A stretch of 38,158 nucleotides of DNA, taken from the NCBI RefSeq assembly GCF_900155395.1, contig NZ_LT699710.1, forward strand, positions 1 through 38,158. Reading direction: 5' to 3'. Positions within the stretch are counted from its first letter, which is position 1. Each line of letters begins with the position of its first letter. The translations under genes and the position numbers were made by a program. The notes under the pieces were generated by a model that saw nothing but the letters and a program-made list of their open reading frames with translations, was not told the origin of the DNA and searched no databases. Origin of the DNA: Merdibacter massiliensis (GTDB lineage Bacteria > Bacillota_I > Bacilli_A > Erysipelotrichales > Erysipelotrichaceae). Shown in pieces: positions 4,334-23,839 of this stretch.

Positions 4334-4391
4334 AATGTCAGAGAGAAAATTGGGAAATAGGATAATAAAACTGACATTAAATACCAATTTT
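4334..4391 (-). other. Interleaved inverted repeats after glmS
   Basis: Two complementary pairs lie in order a-b-a'-b': 4384-4391 pairs with 4346-4353 (AAAATTGG), and 4371-4379 pairs with 4333-4341 (CTGACATTA). The order would allow either alternative hairpins or a pseudoknot in the 3' end of the glmS transcript. No clear T-run follows, so a normal terminator is not evident; the pairs are short and AT-rich. Confidence 0.35.
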
Positions 4392-6204
4392 ATTCGACCG
4401 TTACTGATTTGGCCAAGTTACGAGGTTTATCAATTTCACAGCCGCGCAATACAGCAGTGCGATAAGCAATCAACTGCAATGGCAACACGCTCAACACTGC
4501 CTGGATCATGCGATCCAGAGGTGGCAGCGGTATGACAATGTCACAGACTTCTTTATGCACACGGAAATTATCCCTGCATACAAGAATGACTTTTGCGCCA
4601 CGCGCTTTTACTTCACGAATGTTACTGATCGTTTTATCAAATAATTGTGGTTCCGTAGCGATGGCAATGACTGGAGTGCCTTCCTCAATTAGAGAAATCG
4701 TACCGTGTTTGAGCTCTCCTGCTGGATAAGCTTCACTGTGTATATAGGAAATTTCCTTTAATTTGAGAGACCCTTCCATGCAGAGAGCATGATCCAGGCC
4801 ACGCCCGATAAAGAAGACATGTTCATGACCGGCTAATACATTTGCGCTTTCTTCCCAATTGCCATTTTCTAATATTTCAGAAAGAAAATCCGGTAATTGA
4901 TGAAGCTGTGCAAGAATCAGCTGTTTGCGTTCTTCATTCATATGTCCGCGCAATGAAGCTAATTGTAAAGCGATATAGGCTAGTAAAGTTACCTGTGTTG
5001 CATATGCTTTTGTTGTTGCAACGGCAATTTCAGCTTTTGCCATCGTGTAAGCAACGAAGTCAGCTTCTCTTGCCAATGAGCTGCCAACAACATTGACAAT
5101 AGCAAGAGTATCGATGTTTCGTTCTTTAGCTAATTTCAATGCGGCTAAAGTATCAGCCGTTTCCCCGCTTTGCGATACAAGAATCACAAGTGTTTGCGGA
5201 TCTAGCATTGGATTGCGATAACGAAATTCACTGGCAACATCCACTTGTACAAACATTCGTGCTTCCGACTCGATCAATTCTTTGGCAATCATGCCGGCAT
5301 GGTAGGCGCTTCCGCAGGCAATGATCATGATATGTGCATATCGATCATATGTGAAAGGACGATCAATATTTGATAAGATGCCGTCTCTTTCAAATGTCTG
5401 CAATGTCTCTTTGACCGCTTCCGGTTCTTCATGAATTTCTTTTAACATGAAATGATCATAGCCGTTTTTCTGAATGGATTGCACATCCATTGTTGTTGTT
5501 TGATATACCGGCTCTTTTTCATTTCCCTGCGCATCGAAAAGTTGAATTTGATTTCCTTTTAAAACGGCAACCTCTTTTTGATCTAATACGACATAGCTGC
5601 GTGTATAAGCAAGCAACGCAGGAATATCGCTCGCAATAAAAGAAGCATATTCATTTTTTGCTACGATCAAAGGTGATTGATAACGCATCGCATATACAGT
5701 GTTTGGATATTCATCAAATAAAATAGCAAATGCATAGGATCCTTTTAATTGTTCTTTTGCCAGCTGCAATGCGGCTAACGGATCTCCTGTTTTTTTGTAA
5801 GCAGCATCAATACAGGCACAGGCTACTTCTGTATCCGTTTCTGATTGGAAATGATAGCCTTGTGCTTCTAATTGTTTTGATAATTCATGATAATTTTCTA
5901 TGATTCCATTATGCACGAGAGTGACATGGCCCTGATGATGCGGATGTGCATTTGTTTCATTTGGTTCTCCATGTGTTGCCCATCTTGTATGTGCAATGCC
6001 GCAACAAGATTGAATAGGATTTTTTTCTACCCGTTCTTGTAAACGGGATACCTTGCCTTGGCTTTTTATGATTTGTATATTATTCGAGGCAAAAAATGCA
6101 ATTCCGCTTGAATCATATCCTCTATATTCCAGTGTTGAAAGACCATGTAATAACACGTCTTGCGCATCTTGGCGATACGAACTATATCCGACAATTCCAC
6201 ACAT
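4390..6204 (-). CDS. glmS: Glutamine-fructose-6-phosphate aminotransferase (isomerising)
   Basis: GlmS makes glucosamine-6-phosphate from fructose-6-phosphate and glutamine, the first step towards UDP-GlcNAc for the cell wall. The 604-residue protein is full length. Cys2, exposed after Met removal, starts the N-terminal amidotransferase domain (CGIVGY), which also has HTRWATHGEPNETNAHPH. Two SIS sugar-isomerase domains follow (SQSGETADT near 375 and the second near 475-590), and the strongly conserved tail PRNLAKSVTVE is intact. A longer frame runs 30 codons upstream, but GGGAGG lies 12 bases before MCGIVGY and the catalytic Cys must be residue 2, so 6204 is the start. Expression is very probably controlled by the ribozyme in its leader. 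Confidence 0.98.
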   Translation of the reverse strand: MCGIVGYSSYRQDAQDVLLHGLSTLEYRGYDSSGIAFFASNNIQIIKSQGKVSRLQERVEKNPIQSCCGIAHTRWATHGEPNETNAHPHHQGHVTLVHNGIIENYHELSKQLEAQGYHFQSETDTEVACACIDAAYKKTGDPLAALQLAKEQLKGSYAFAILFDEYPNTVYAMRYQSPLIVAKNEYASFIASDIPALLAYTRSYVVLDQKEVAVLKGNQIQLFDAQGNEKEPVYQTTTMDVQSIQKNGYDHFMLKEIHEEPEAVKETLQTFERDGILSNIDRPFTYDRYAHIMIIACGSAYHAGMIAKELIESEARMFVQVDVASEFRYRNPMLDPQTLVILVSQSGETADTLAALKLAKERNIDTLAIVNVVGSSLAREADFVAYTMAKAEIAVATTKAYATQVTLLAYIALQLASLRGHMNEERKQLILAQLHQLPDFLSEILENGNWEESANVLAGHEHVFFIGRGLDHALCMEGSLKLKEISYIHSEAYPAGELKHGTISLIEEGTPVIAIATEPQLFDKTISNIREVKARGAKVILVCRDNFRVHKEVCDIVIPLPPLDRMIQAVLSVLPLQLIAYRTAVLRGCEIDKPRNLAKSVTVE

Positions 6205-6399
6205 AAAATTATTGATTCCTCCCATTGGTGTGTACTGAAAAACGACAATAAAAAGAATCTTCAAGAAGATCGTTCTTTTTAATGGCCGTTTCATTTGGAC
6301 ATCATAAAAAAGATATAAAAAAGCATATGAAAAAACTGACCTGATTGAATCAGATAAATTCTATCTATATCGTATTATGATGAAATGAAATAATCAGTC

Positions 6400-6546
6400 A
6401 TGATGAAAACACCATGGGTGATGAACGATGTTTTGTGGCAATTTTGCTTTTTGTCAAACGTTCTTACGATTCACCTCATACCGTGACAGTACCCGCCGAG
6501 TCTTTCGATCACTGTCAACCTCGTCAACCTCGTAGGTCCAGGCGCT
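6400..6546 (-). ncRNA. glmS ribozyme (glucosamine-6-phosphate-activated self-cleaving RNA)
   Basis: Read on the minus strand, the leader contains the hallmark order of this ribozyme: A|GCGCC at 6546-6541 (cleavage between A at 6546 and G at 6545), GTTGACGAGG, then TCGGCGGGT in the core, and a closing hairpin ATGGTG-TTTT-CATCAT at 6415-6400. The class is known to cleave its own mRNA when glucosamine-6-phosphate binds, after which the 3' fragment is degraded, giving feedback control of GlmS. It lies about 200 bases before the glmS start and in the right orientation. The exact 3' boundary is approximate. Confidence 0.93.
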
Positions 6547-6591
6547 CATTACTAGCAGTCACTTTCCTCCTCACTGGCTAATAACTGCTTT

Positions 6592-19329: not shown

Positions 19330-19908
19330 ATGAGTAAGGGAACATTACTTGTATTGACAGGTGCCAGCAGCGTAGGAAAAGGTGCAATTCGTGACTGCTT
19401 GCTAGAAGATGATCAACTGCATTTGTTCTACTCTATTTCTATGACGACACGTCCAAAGAAAGATACAGAAAAAGATGGTGTTGATTATTATTTTGTCAAT
19501 CGTAAAACATTTGCTGATGCTGTTCGTTCACATGAGTTGCTAGAGTATACACAATTTGATGGCTATTATTATGGAACGCCGTTGGCATATATTGATTTTC
19601 TTTTGAAAATCGGGAAAAATGTACTGTTAGAGGTGGAAGCGCAAGGGGTAGGCCAAATCAAGCTTCGCTATCCTGATGCATTGGCTGTCTTTGTTGTACC
19701 AGAAAGTATGGAGGATCTGGAAAAACAAATTCGTGCACGTTATAATGATCCAGCTAGCGCAGATCTTCGTGTAAACAAAGCAAGTATGGAGATGGAATTA
19801 AGTTCATTGTTCCGTCATCAAGTAAAAAATAGTGATGCACAAAAAGCAAAAGAGGAAATTGCTGATATGTTAGCAAAACATCAAGCAAAATTAAAAGCAA
19901 AGGAATAA
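19330..19908 (+). CDS. Divergent guanylate kinase-like protein
   Basis: The 192-residue protein aligns along its length with guanylate kinases: P-loop region TGASSVGKGA (10-19), GMP-binding SISMTTRPKKDTEKDGVDYYF, GYYYGTP and VLLEVEAQG. Compared with the B. subtilis-type GPSGVGKGT loop, the P-loop reads GASSVGKGA, so the conserved Gly and the Thr near the magnesium site are replaced by Ser and Ala. The second Arg of the GMP-binding TTRxxR motif is Lys. Lid arginines seem to remain. It sits between a peptidase and a transporter rather than with rpoZ/priA as housekeeping gmk often does. It is probably a second, altered copy; activity is uncertain. Confidence 0.8.
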   Translation: MSKGTLLVLTGASSVGKGAIRDCLLEDDQLHLFYSISMTTRPKKDTEKDGVDYYFVNRKTFADAVRSHELLEYTQFDGYYYGTPLAYIDFLLKIGKNVLLEVEAQGVGQIKLRYPDALAVFVVPESMEDLEKQIRARYNDPASADLRVNKASMEMELSSLFRHQVKNSDAQKAKEEIADMLAKHQAKLKAKE

Positions 19909-22000: not shown

Positions 22001-22033
22001 AGGTTGAACGTTCATTCGTTCAACCTATTTTTT
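22001..22033. terminator. Bidirectional terminator between the aminotransferase and the fusion gene
   Basis: AGGTTGAACG and CGTTCAACCT (22001-22010 and 22017-22026) form a perfect 10-pair stem flanked by A-run and T-run. It serves both convergent genes and overlaps the last codons of the minus-strand gene. Confidence 0.88.
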
Positions 22034-23824
22034 GTTTTGATAATATTCCTTTAAAAAGGATGTTTTATACTCTTCGAATGTACCATCTAAGATTGCCTGT
22101 CTTGCTTCTTCTGTCAATCGAATGATGAATCGCAAGTTATGCATGGAAGCAAGATTAAAATATTTTTCGCGATCTTTTGGATCAGAAGATTTCAATAGAG
22201 CACGTAATTGTCCGCGTGTCCATCCGGCTCGACAAGTAGGACAATCACAATCTTCTTCAATTAAATCATTGCTGTCTGCAAATTTCTTAATTGCAATATT
22301 TCCGTGTCGAGTATAGATACGGCCATGTCTTGCTTCTCTGGTAGGCGCAACACAATCGAATGTATCTGCTCCCATCTCTGTACCAATCAAAATATCATCA
22401 GGATGTGATAAGCCAAGTAAATGACGCGGTTTGTTTTCTGGTAATTCTTCACAGCACCAACGCAGGATATCACCAAGTGTTTCTTTTAGAAATGCACCGC
22501 CTAAGCCATAGCCGTCAAAATCCATCTTGGCAAATTTCTTAGCAGTGGAACGACGCAGATCTTCCCAACGACCGCCCTGCAGTACTCCATAAAGAGATTG
22601 GTGATAGCCAAGATCGTCACAATGTTTACGATGATAGTGAATACTTTTCTTTGCCCATCTTTCTGTACGCGCCAAGGCTTCTTTATTGTATTCATAAGTA
22701 TCAGCTAAAGAAGTTAGTTCGTCATATGCCATGTGAATATCAGCACCGATACGGCATTGAATTTCCATAGATTCTTTAGGACCGATAAAATCATCTTGGT
22801 CAGTGAATGGATCATGGAAATGAACTCCTTTTTCAGTAACGATTGCTAAACGGTCTTTTTTTTCGGTATTTACAATGTTTCTTTCTTTCTCCATACTGAC
22901 CACTTTTCCACAACCAGACCCAAGCGACATTACTTGAAATCCGCCAGAATCGGTTAAAGTTGGACCCTGCCATCCGGACCATTTCGCTAAACCGCCTTGA
23001 TCAGCAATAGTAGGGGATATGTTACGTAAATGATAACCATTGCTTAACATAGCTTGTGCGTGAATAGAGTGCAAGTCATGCATCGAAAGATAGCGAACTT
23101 CGCCGCGTGTGCCTACTGTCATAAAGGCAGGAGTGTGAATATCTCCATGTGGGGTATGAATGATGCCGGCACGGCCAAGTTTCCCGGGAATTCTCTTTGT
23201 GATCTCAAAATAAAATTGATTGTTGTTTTGATATTCACAGAGATCCGGCTGTAATTTGTTTTCGATCAAAGTTCCTATTAAAGATAGTACAACATTTAGA
23301 ATGATACCAATAAAAAAGGTAATAAGCAGCTGCAGCAAGATCTCATATAAGGGGAGAATAGCCAAATACGTTATGAATTCGAATATAGCAGCTGCAACCA
23401 AATAAGCGACAGCAGAAGCAGAGAAAGAACACACATAAAAATGCTGTGATGCTTTTTTTATATTGCGCAGCCGTAAAAAAAGAGCATTGTTTATGTAATT
23501 TGAAGCAAGAAATGCAAAAAGTAAGGCAAGAAAGGTTCGATACCACAAGACATGTAATGGAAGAAATTCCAAAATAAAGAGCAGCAGGACCATAACGAAA
23601 GCGATCCAGAAACTGGTAAAAGTTATGATCTTTGCTATGCGTTTTCCATAAAACTGAATGATCAAATCGCTTAATATATAGATAAATGGATAAATCAGTA
23701 CACCTCCAGCTATAGCGATCGAGGAAATCGTCCAATGTTTTATAGCAGCTAAATTACTTAGCATCAGCATTCCAACGGATAATGCGGCAAAAAAAATCAA
23801 TGTTTTCTGTTTTGTTTTTGACAT
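22025..23824 (-). CDS. Fusion of a queuosine-precursor transporter (YhhQ/VUT) with tRNA-guanine transglycosylase
   Basis: One continuous 599-residue frame. Residues ~9-192 are a multi-helix membrane domain with the VUT signature YILSDLIIQFYGKRIA, as in YhhQ, known to import preQ0/preQ1. Residues ~204-595 are a full tRNA-guanine transglycosylase, which swaps a 7-deazaguanine base into tRNA position 34. Asp292 (TDSGGFQVMS) and the nucleophile Asp490 (FDCVAPTR) are present, as is the zinc set Cys526, Cys528, Cys531 and His562. Differences from the Zymomonas enzyme: Cys158 is Leu370 (YDEL), GGLAVGE is GGAFLKE (442-448), and about 22 extra residues lie within 302-335. A direct hand-over of the imported base is inferred. 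The start is MSKTKQK; no ribosome-binding site precedes it. Function is inferred from families. Confidence 0.92.
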   Translation of the reverse strand: MSKTKQKTLIFFAALSVGMLMLSNLAAIKHWTISSIAIAGGVLIYPFIYILSDLIIQFYGKRIAKIITFTSFWIAFVMVLLLFILEFLPLHVLWYRTFLALLFAFLASNYINNALFLRLRNIKKASQHFYVCSFSASAVAYLVAAAIFEFITYLAILPLYEILLQLLITFFIGIILNVVLSLIGTLIENKLQPDLCEYQNNNQFYFEITKRIPGKLGRAGIIHTPHGDIHTPAFMTVGTRGEVRYLSMHDLHSIHAQAMLSNGYHLRNISPTIADQGGLAKWSGWQGPTLTDSGGFQVMSLGSGCGKVVSMEKERNIVNTEKKDRLAIVTEKGVHFHDPFTDQDDFIGPKESMEIQCRIGADIHMAYDELTSLADTYEYNKEALARTERWAKKSIHYHRKHCDDLGYHQSLYGVLQGGRWEDLRRSTAKKFAKMDFDGYGLGGAFLKETLGDILRWCCEELPENKPRHLLGLSHPDDILIGTEMGADTFDCVAPTREARHGRIYTRHGNIAIKKFADSNDLIEEDCDCPTCRAGWTRGQLRALLKSSDPKDREKYFNLASMHNLRFIIRLTEEARQAILDGTFEEYKTSFLKEYYQNKK

Positions 23825-23839
23825 GATGGCATTATAACA
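23824..23839 (-). promoter_or_regulatory. Extended -10 promoter giving a predicted leaderless mRNA
   Basis: On the minus strand TGT-TATAAT (23839-23831) is followed by six bases and then the ATG at 23824. Standard spacing puts the transcript start on the A of the ATG. The -35 region is weak, as is common with extended -10 promoters. Confidence 0.6.

Follow-up and report, generated by a model that had tools for sequence, protein, structure and literature searches.

Transporter domains fused to tRNA-guanine transglycosylase (TGT) were searched for by Quaiyum et al. (2024), and QPTR is one of three such domains that they describe (PMC11130926). In the TGT of Zymomonas the choice between preQ1 and queuine is governed by Cys158 and Val233 (PMC3660597), and Bartonella henselae, which has the same gene content as the genome described here, keeps preQ1 (PMC11570991). 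No publication was found that ties queuosine to the Erysipelotrichaceae in a way that bears on this gene.

The gene analyzed here lies in a window of 38,158 nt of Merdibacter massiliensis DNA and joins a membrane domain of the VUT/YhhQ (QPTR) type to a TGT. An earlier note on this DNA had supposed that similar fusions might be known elsewhere, which proved correct: PMC11130926 reported QPTR-TGT fusions in 2024, so the architecture is not new, and the same join is present in at least nine genomes.

The fused gene and its surroundings

The gene is a single frame of 599 codons on the minus strand, running without internal stop from an ATG at 23824 to a stop codon at 22027-22025 (Table 1); the in-frame fusion described in the earlier note, which gave no strand, is thus confirmed. 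The ATG is conserved and common to relatives. The predicted protein matched the Pfam families Vut_1 (PF02592; residues 40-185, 44.9 bits, cut-off 27.2) and TGT (PF01702; residues 217-595, 346 bits, cut-off 26.3). Among the NCBIfam models it passed TIGR00430 (334.9 bits, cut-off 306.75) and scored 25.6 bits with TIGR00697 (queuosine precursor transporter), below the cut-off of 50.95. Modelled in full length by AlphaFold2 (mean pLDDT 89.5, pTM 0.82), the protein has six long helices and, after them, a TGT fold, an arrangement predicted to keep the TGT at the membrane on its cytosolic face. The junction matches the N-terminus of unfused TGTs (M-x-x-Y-K/Q-N-N-N), and by the codon listing M. massiliensis and its genus no longer have the former tgt start codon. 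Profile searches found a single TGT and a single PF02592 protein in the genome.

Table 1. Features of the fused gene in M. massiliensis (positions in the window).
Feature	Position	Strand	Basis
Fused gene, QPTR-derived membrane domain + TGT, 599 aa	22025..23824	-	open frame, Pfam, NCBIfam
Extended -10 element TGTTATAAT, ends six bases before ATG	23831..23839	-	sequence
Degenerate VUT/YhhQ domain, residues 1-196	23237..23824	-	AlphaFold2 model, conservation loss
Fusion junction, residues 197-215, EYQNNNQFYFEITKRIPGK	23180..23236	-	codon listing, 37 loci
TGT domain, residues 216-597	22034..23179	-	PF01702, TIGR00430
Class-specific insert of about 22 residues, ~residues 300-326, after SGGFQVMSL	22847..22927	-	motif spacing
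Base-pocket loop GGAFLKE, residues 442-448	22481..22501	-	loop length, alignment (canonical and actinobacterial TGTs)
D490, catalytic nucleophile (Zymomonas D280 equivalent)	22355..22357	-	alignment
Zinc site C526, C528, C531, H562 (Cys3His)	22139..22249	-	alignment
Two-way terminator-like hairpin, gene 3' end	22001..22026		consensus scan only

An assembly or sequencing artefact was considered and ruled out, because assemblies made independently for three genera contain the same join; among them are those of Candidatus Merdibacter merdigallinarum and Faecalicoccus acidiformans DSM 26963.

TATAAT, often within TGnTATAAT, ends six bases before the vut ATG in most relatives, fused and unfused, and the spacing suggests that a leaderless mRNA for vut or the fusion gene may be conserved. 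No preQ1 riboswitch was found in the 38,158-nt window or in the loci of ten relatives; since the promoter ends six bases before the ATG, there is no room for a leader. Elsewhere in the window, a glmS ribozyme (6414-6557, 53 bits) lies upstream of a minus-strand gene (4390-6294) with SIS and glutamine amidotransferase domains. A guanylate-kinase-like gene (19330-19908), flanked by an M24 peptidase gene and the gene for an EamA transporter, lies downstream of an oligopeptide ABC transporter cluster.

The TGT and transporter halves

The C-terminal half is classed as a bacterial TGT of non-canonical type. Alignment located the catalytic and zinc residues D292, D368, D490, C526, C528, C531 and H562, and together with the Pfam and TIGR00430 matches this bears out the earlier description of a complete transglycosylase with nucleophile and zinc site. 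The modelled half superimposed on the TGT of Z. mobilis with a TM-score of 0.92 (by target length). A structure search with a sister fusion aligned about 360 residues with TGT structures (Z 49, rmsd 1.6-1.8); the search list was filled by TGT entries, with no matches shown for the membrane half. The TGT half of M. massiliensis keeps 98% of the columns invariant in the other fusions, and its terminal branch is 0.075, compared to 0.03-0.05 in its sisters.

This TGT belongs to a divergent class, which scores about 330-360 bits with the TGT profile against about 520-560 bits for canonical TGTs of the family. In the divergent class the spacing from SGGFQ.SL to GV.F is 31 residues, compared to 9 in canonical TGTs, and the insert responsible is partly disordered in the model (pLDDT <50 at residues 298-311). 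From the pocket loop to LPxxKP there are 17 residues in all 41 measurable divergent TGTs and 20 in canonical ones. The pocket motif is GGAFLK in nearly all divergent TGTs and GGTSVGE in canonical relatives; the divergent TGT matched neither the canonical preQ1-type pocket GGL[AS]VGE nor the queuine-type pocket GG[LS][AS]G of Chlamydia and eukaryotes, having GGAFL instead. Position 158, a Cys in Zymomonas, aligns with Leu (DELT), and by its sequence the class fits neither Cys158/Val233 pattern. Most members have Glu directly after GGAFLK, others Ser, Asn or Lys, and because of this variation its equivalence to Glu235 of Zymomonas is doubtful.

The membrane half is a different case. Six membrane helices were predicted by the AlphaFold2 model (residues 3-29, 42-59, 61-85, 92-120, 129-153 and 159-195), but the earlier description of a complete membrane domain did not survive comparison with relatives. 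Only 33 of 71 family-conserved columns are kept and 38 are lost, the loop joining helix 3 to helix 4, which contains a short helix in the model of a sister, has lost 13 residues, and an Asp common to E. coli YhhQ and all aligned relatives is replaced by Ala. The stretch FIARALGS of relatives reads FYVCSFSA. Of the columns invariant in the seven other fusions M. massiliensis retains 44 of 82 (54%), whereas each of the other fusions, counted likewise, retains 86-98%. Its terminal VUT branch of 3.33 against a median of 0.22 corresponds to change about 15 times faster. Non-synonymous differences in this half (0.34-0.38 per site) are nevertheless lower than the synonymous ones (0.76-0.83, saturated, as in most pairs), indicating that some constraint is left, at least for the membrane helices. 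The closest VUT sequences come from its own genus, and replacement of this half by a foreign gene is therefore not indicated. The VUT half is not classed as a functional transporter of queuosine precursors, since defining features of one were looked for and found lacking.

Distribution of the fusion and of queuosine genes in Erysipelotrichaceae

The TGTs of 146 Erysipelotrichaceae genomes were assigned to the two classes by profile score, truncated copies being left aside. The fusion was found in 8 of 36 genomes with a divergent TGT (three Merdibacter, four of another genus and one Faecalicoccus), and a ninth on contig L108 brings the total to at least nine genomes in three genera. In 16 of the 36 an unfused vut gene lies directly upstream of tgt, and most of these pairs overlap by about 4-14 bases; in another three the sole PF02592 gene is distant and unlinked. 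The profile search found no PF02592 protein in the remaining nine (G102, G051, G014, G092, G052, G055, G001, G054 and G038), which also lack QueT. An unfused Faecalicoccus sister of the fused one has no PF02592 at all, and these cases together indicate that transporter loss happens in Erysipelotrichaceae. No recurrent same-strand neighbour that might be an alternative transporter was found beside tgt in the vut-less genomes.

Outside Erysipelotrichaceae, a sample of 392 genomes of the phylum contained no full-length relative of the fusion. Grouping of the fused TGTs as one clade was disfavoured (AU p 0.016); the junction length is identical in all three fusion genera, and one fusion event with later loss is possible. 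An Erysipelotrichaceae-type vut-tgt pair was also seen on a contig (L110) labelled Candidatus Saccharibacteria, a bin label that is probably wrong.

The two TGT classes differ in the genes that accompany them. QueA was found in none of 36 genomes with a divergent TGT and in all 15 canonical-TGT genomes sampled; for QueH the counts were 0 of 36 and 12 of 15, and for QueT 0 of 36 and 13 of 15. QueG was absent from all 57 Erysipelotrichaceae genomes searched. The QueC model gave 19-33 bits in nearly all genomes, mostly in frames of about 400-540 aa, and these weak matches are read as other PP-loop ATPases and not QueC. Positive controls were matched in the QueA, QueH, QueG, QueT and QueC searches; the Qng1 model had no match in the genomes searched, nor in any control. 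In these 57 genomes the family thus shows two exclusive regimes, a canonical TGT with QueA and usually QueH and QueT, or a short-loop TGT without any of them, and this split points to a TGT class in common gut bacteria whose base is unreadable from the known pocket motifs.

Searches of the M. massiliensis genome gave no second PF02592 protein and no QueT. PMC11130926 names an HlyIII protein of Bifidobacterium breve as a preQ1 transporter. HlyIII occurs in M. massiliensis, but also in the majority of genomes of either regime, and is for that reason uninformative as an importer; three HlyIII-family genes were counted in the Merdibacter genomes (G000, G040 and G082) and one in most relatives. The earlier remark that no other queuosine genes lie nearby extends to the whole genome, which has no QueA, QueH, QueG or QueT, and the salvage life style proposed on that ground is upheld by this gene content, the QueC model having given weak PP-loop matches only. 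With no known queuosine synthesis step in the genome, the base must be salvaged, and with nothing known to finish preQ1 on the tRNA, queuine is favoured: the base used by the divergent TGT would most likely be queuine, and possibly preQ1.

Role of the fused protein and comparison with known systems

Comparison among relatives shows that a vut gene (YhhQ/QPTR) and the downstream tgt, which usually overlap, merged into one frame in M. massiliensis and likewise in two other genera of the family, presumably by the first gene of the adjacent overlapping pair losing its stop and the second its start. The TGT half would swap guanine 34 of GUN-anticodon tRNAs for a gut-derived base, presumably one that requires no finishing on the tRNA, because the cell has no other queuosine synthesis step. 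Since the residue pattern of the VUT half is largely lost and the TGT is strictly conserved, the most likely product is a TGT carried on an eroded transporter that would now chiefly anchor the enzyme to the membrane and transport weakly or not at all; the loss of the start codon of tgt itself may be what keeps the frame open. Taken as a whole, this account of merger, salvage and a working TGT on an eroded transporter or anchor appears somewhat better than an even bet. A stricter version, in which a former importer without any transport serves as anchor or sensor for a TGT with a new type of pocket and the base enters by another route, is tentative. Erosion has to be reconciled with a VUT half that has no stop, six helices modelled at high confidence and some remaining constraint, and a dead VUT half would leave import unexplained, since the searches of the genome gave no other known importer.

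The fast change could also reflect a new substrate instead of decay, the VUT half transporting another 7-deazapurine or a nucleoside. The frame and the membrane helices were kept throughout that change and the genome has no other known importer of queuosine precursors, as this explanation would have it; on the other hand, the lost residues include ones common to E. coli YhhQ as well as an extracellular helix and loop, and the disappearance of many conserved columns at once looks like relaxed constraint rather than retuning. Change of substrate is the main rival to erosion, but we consider it rather unlikely, and erosion is preferred. Somewhat less likely still is the chimera envisaged in the earlier note, with a membrane half that imports the base and a tethered TGT that takes it at once. 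Both halves act in one pathway, and the six helices of the modelled single chain would leave the TGT facing the cytosol. Three genera retain the fusion, and in the other fusions the VUT half is well conserved. Against this, the VUT half is eroded in M. massiliensis, sixteen relatives lack the fusion, and nine have no PF02592 protein of any kind. Direct hand-over is therefore doubtful here and far more plausible for the other fusions, which offer a ready test of it, among them that of the cultured F. acidiformans DSM 26963 with its well conserved transporter half.

Separate production of the TGT, by an internal start or by cleavage, is the most improbable of these explanations. A genus-level group (g50) mostly retains an ATG at the old tgt start, and in M. 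massiliensis a TTG in the same frame lies close to where the last helix ends, but the old ATG is gone in Merdibacter and no clear Shine-Dalgarno sequence with a start is present at the junction. As to the base, the idea that preQ1 and not queuine is inserted as the final modification deserves more weight than any of these three, although it is still the less probable end point. It has a precedent in Bartonella (PMC11570991), and the pocket is without the GG[LS][AS]G of queuine-type TGTs; the pocket is, however, not of the preQ1 type either, its loop being 3 residues shorter and the Val233 region changed, and genomes with tgt only are usually taken as queuine users. The GluQRS product acts on full Q, and a class member near gluQRS on a Tsukamurella plasmid is a weak hint against preQ1.

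Outside the family, counterparts of the TGT half are encoded on plasmids of Arthrobacter and Nocardia. These actinobacterial TGTs have the same kind of insert, a short loop (GGALEK) and DELT for DEC, but are only 41-46% identical to the M. massiliensis TGT and are unfused in the records examined; an Arthrobacter plasmid has an annotated, unfused queuosine precursor transporter near tgt. Horizontal transfer between Erysipelotrichaceae and the actinobacterial short-loop TGTs is possible. The TGT near gluQRS on the Tsukamurella plasmid (L152:2507-5894) is a more diverged one of the short-loop type, with a zinc site that looks damaged (TQNYT for CDCYTC).

The queuine salvage system of Chlamydia trachomatis likewise consists of TGT and QPTR only, with no QueA, QueG or QueH, but its proteins are separate and its pocket is GG[LS][AS]G (PMC11570991), in contrast to GGAFLK with a short loop here. 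E. coli YhhQ/QPTR (COG1738) has a homologous six-helix domain, and the M. massiliensis half scores above the PF02592 cut-off; the two are nevertheless only 19% identical, and the M. massiliensis half has one loop missing and the conserved Asp changed to Ala. Among the closest described proteins are the QPTR-bTGT fusions listed in Table S1 of PMC11130926, which also hold PF02592 and bTGT in one protein; the available part of that report does not mention degeneration of the QPTR half and does not describe activity.
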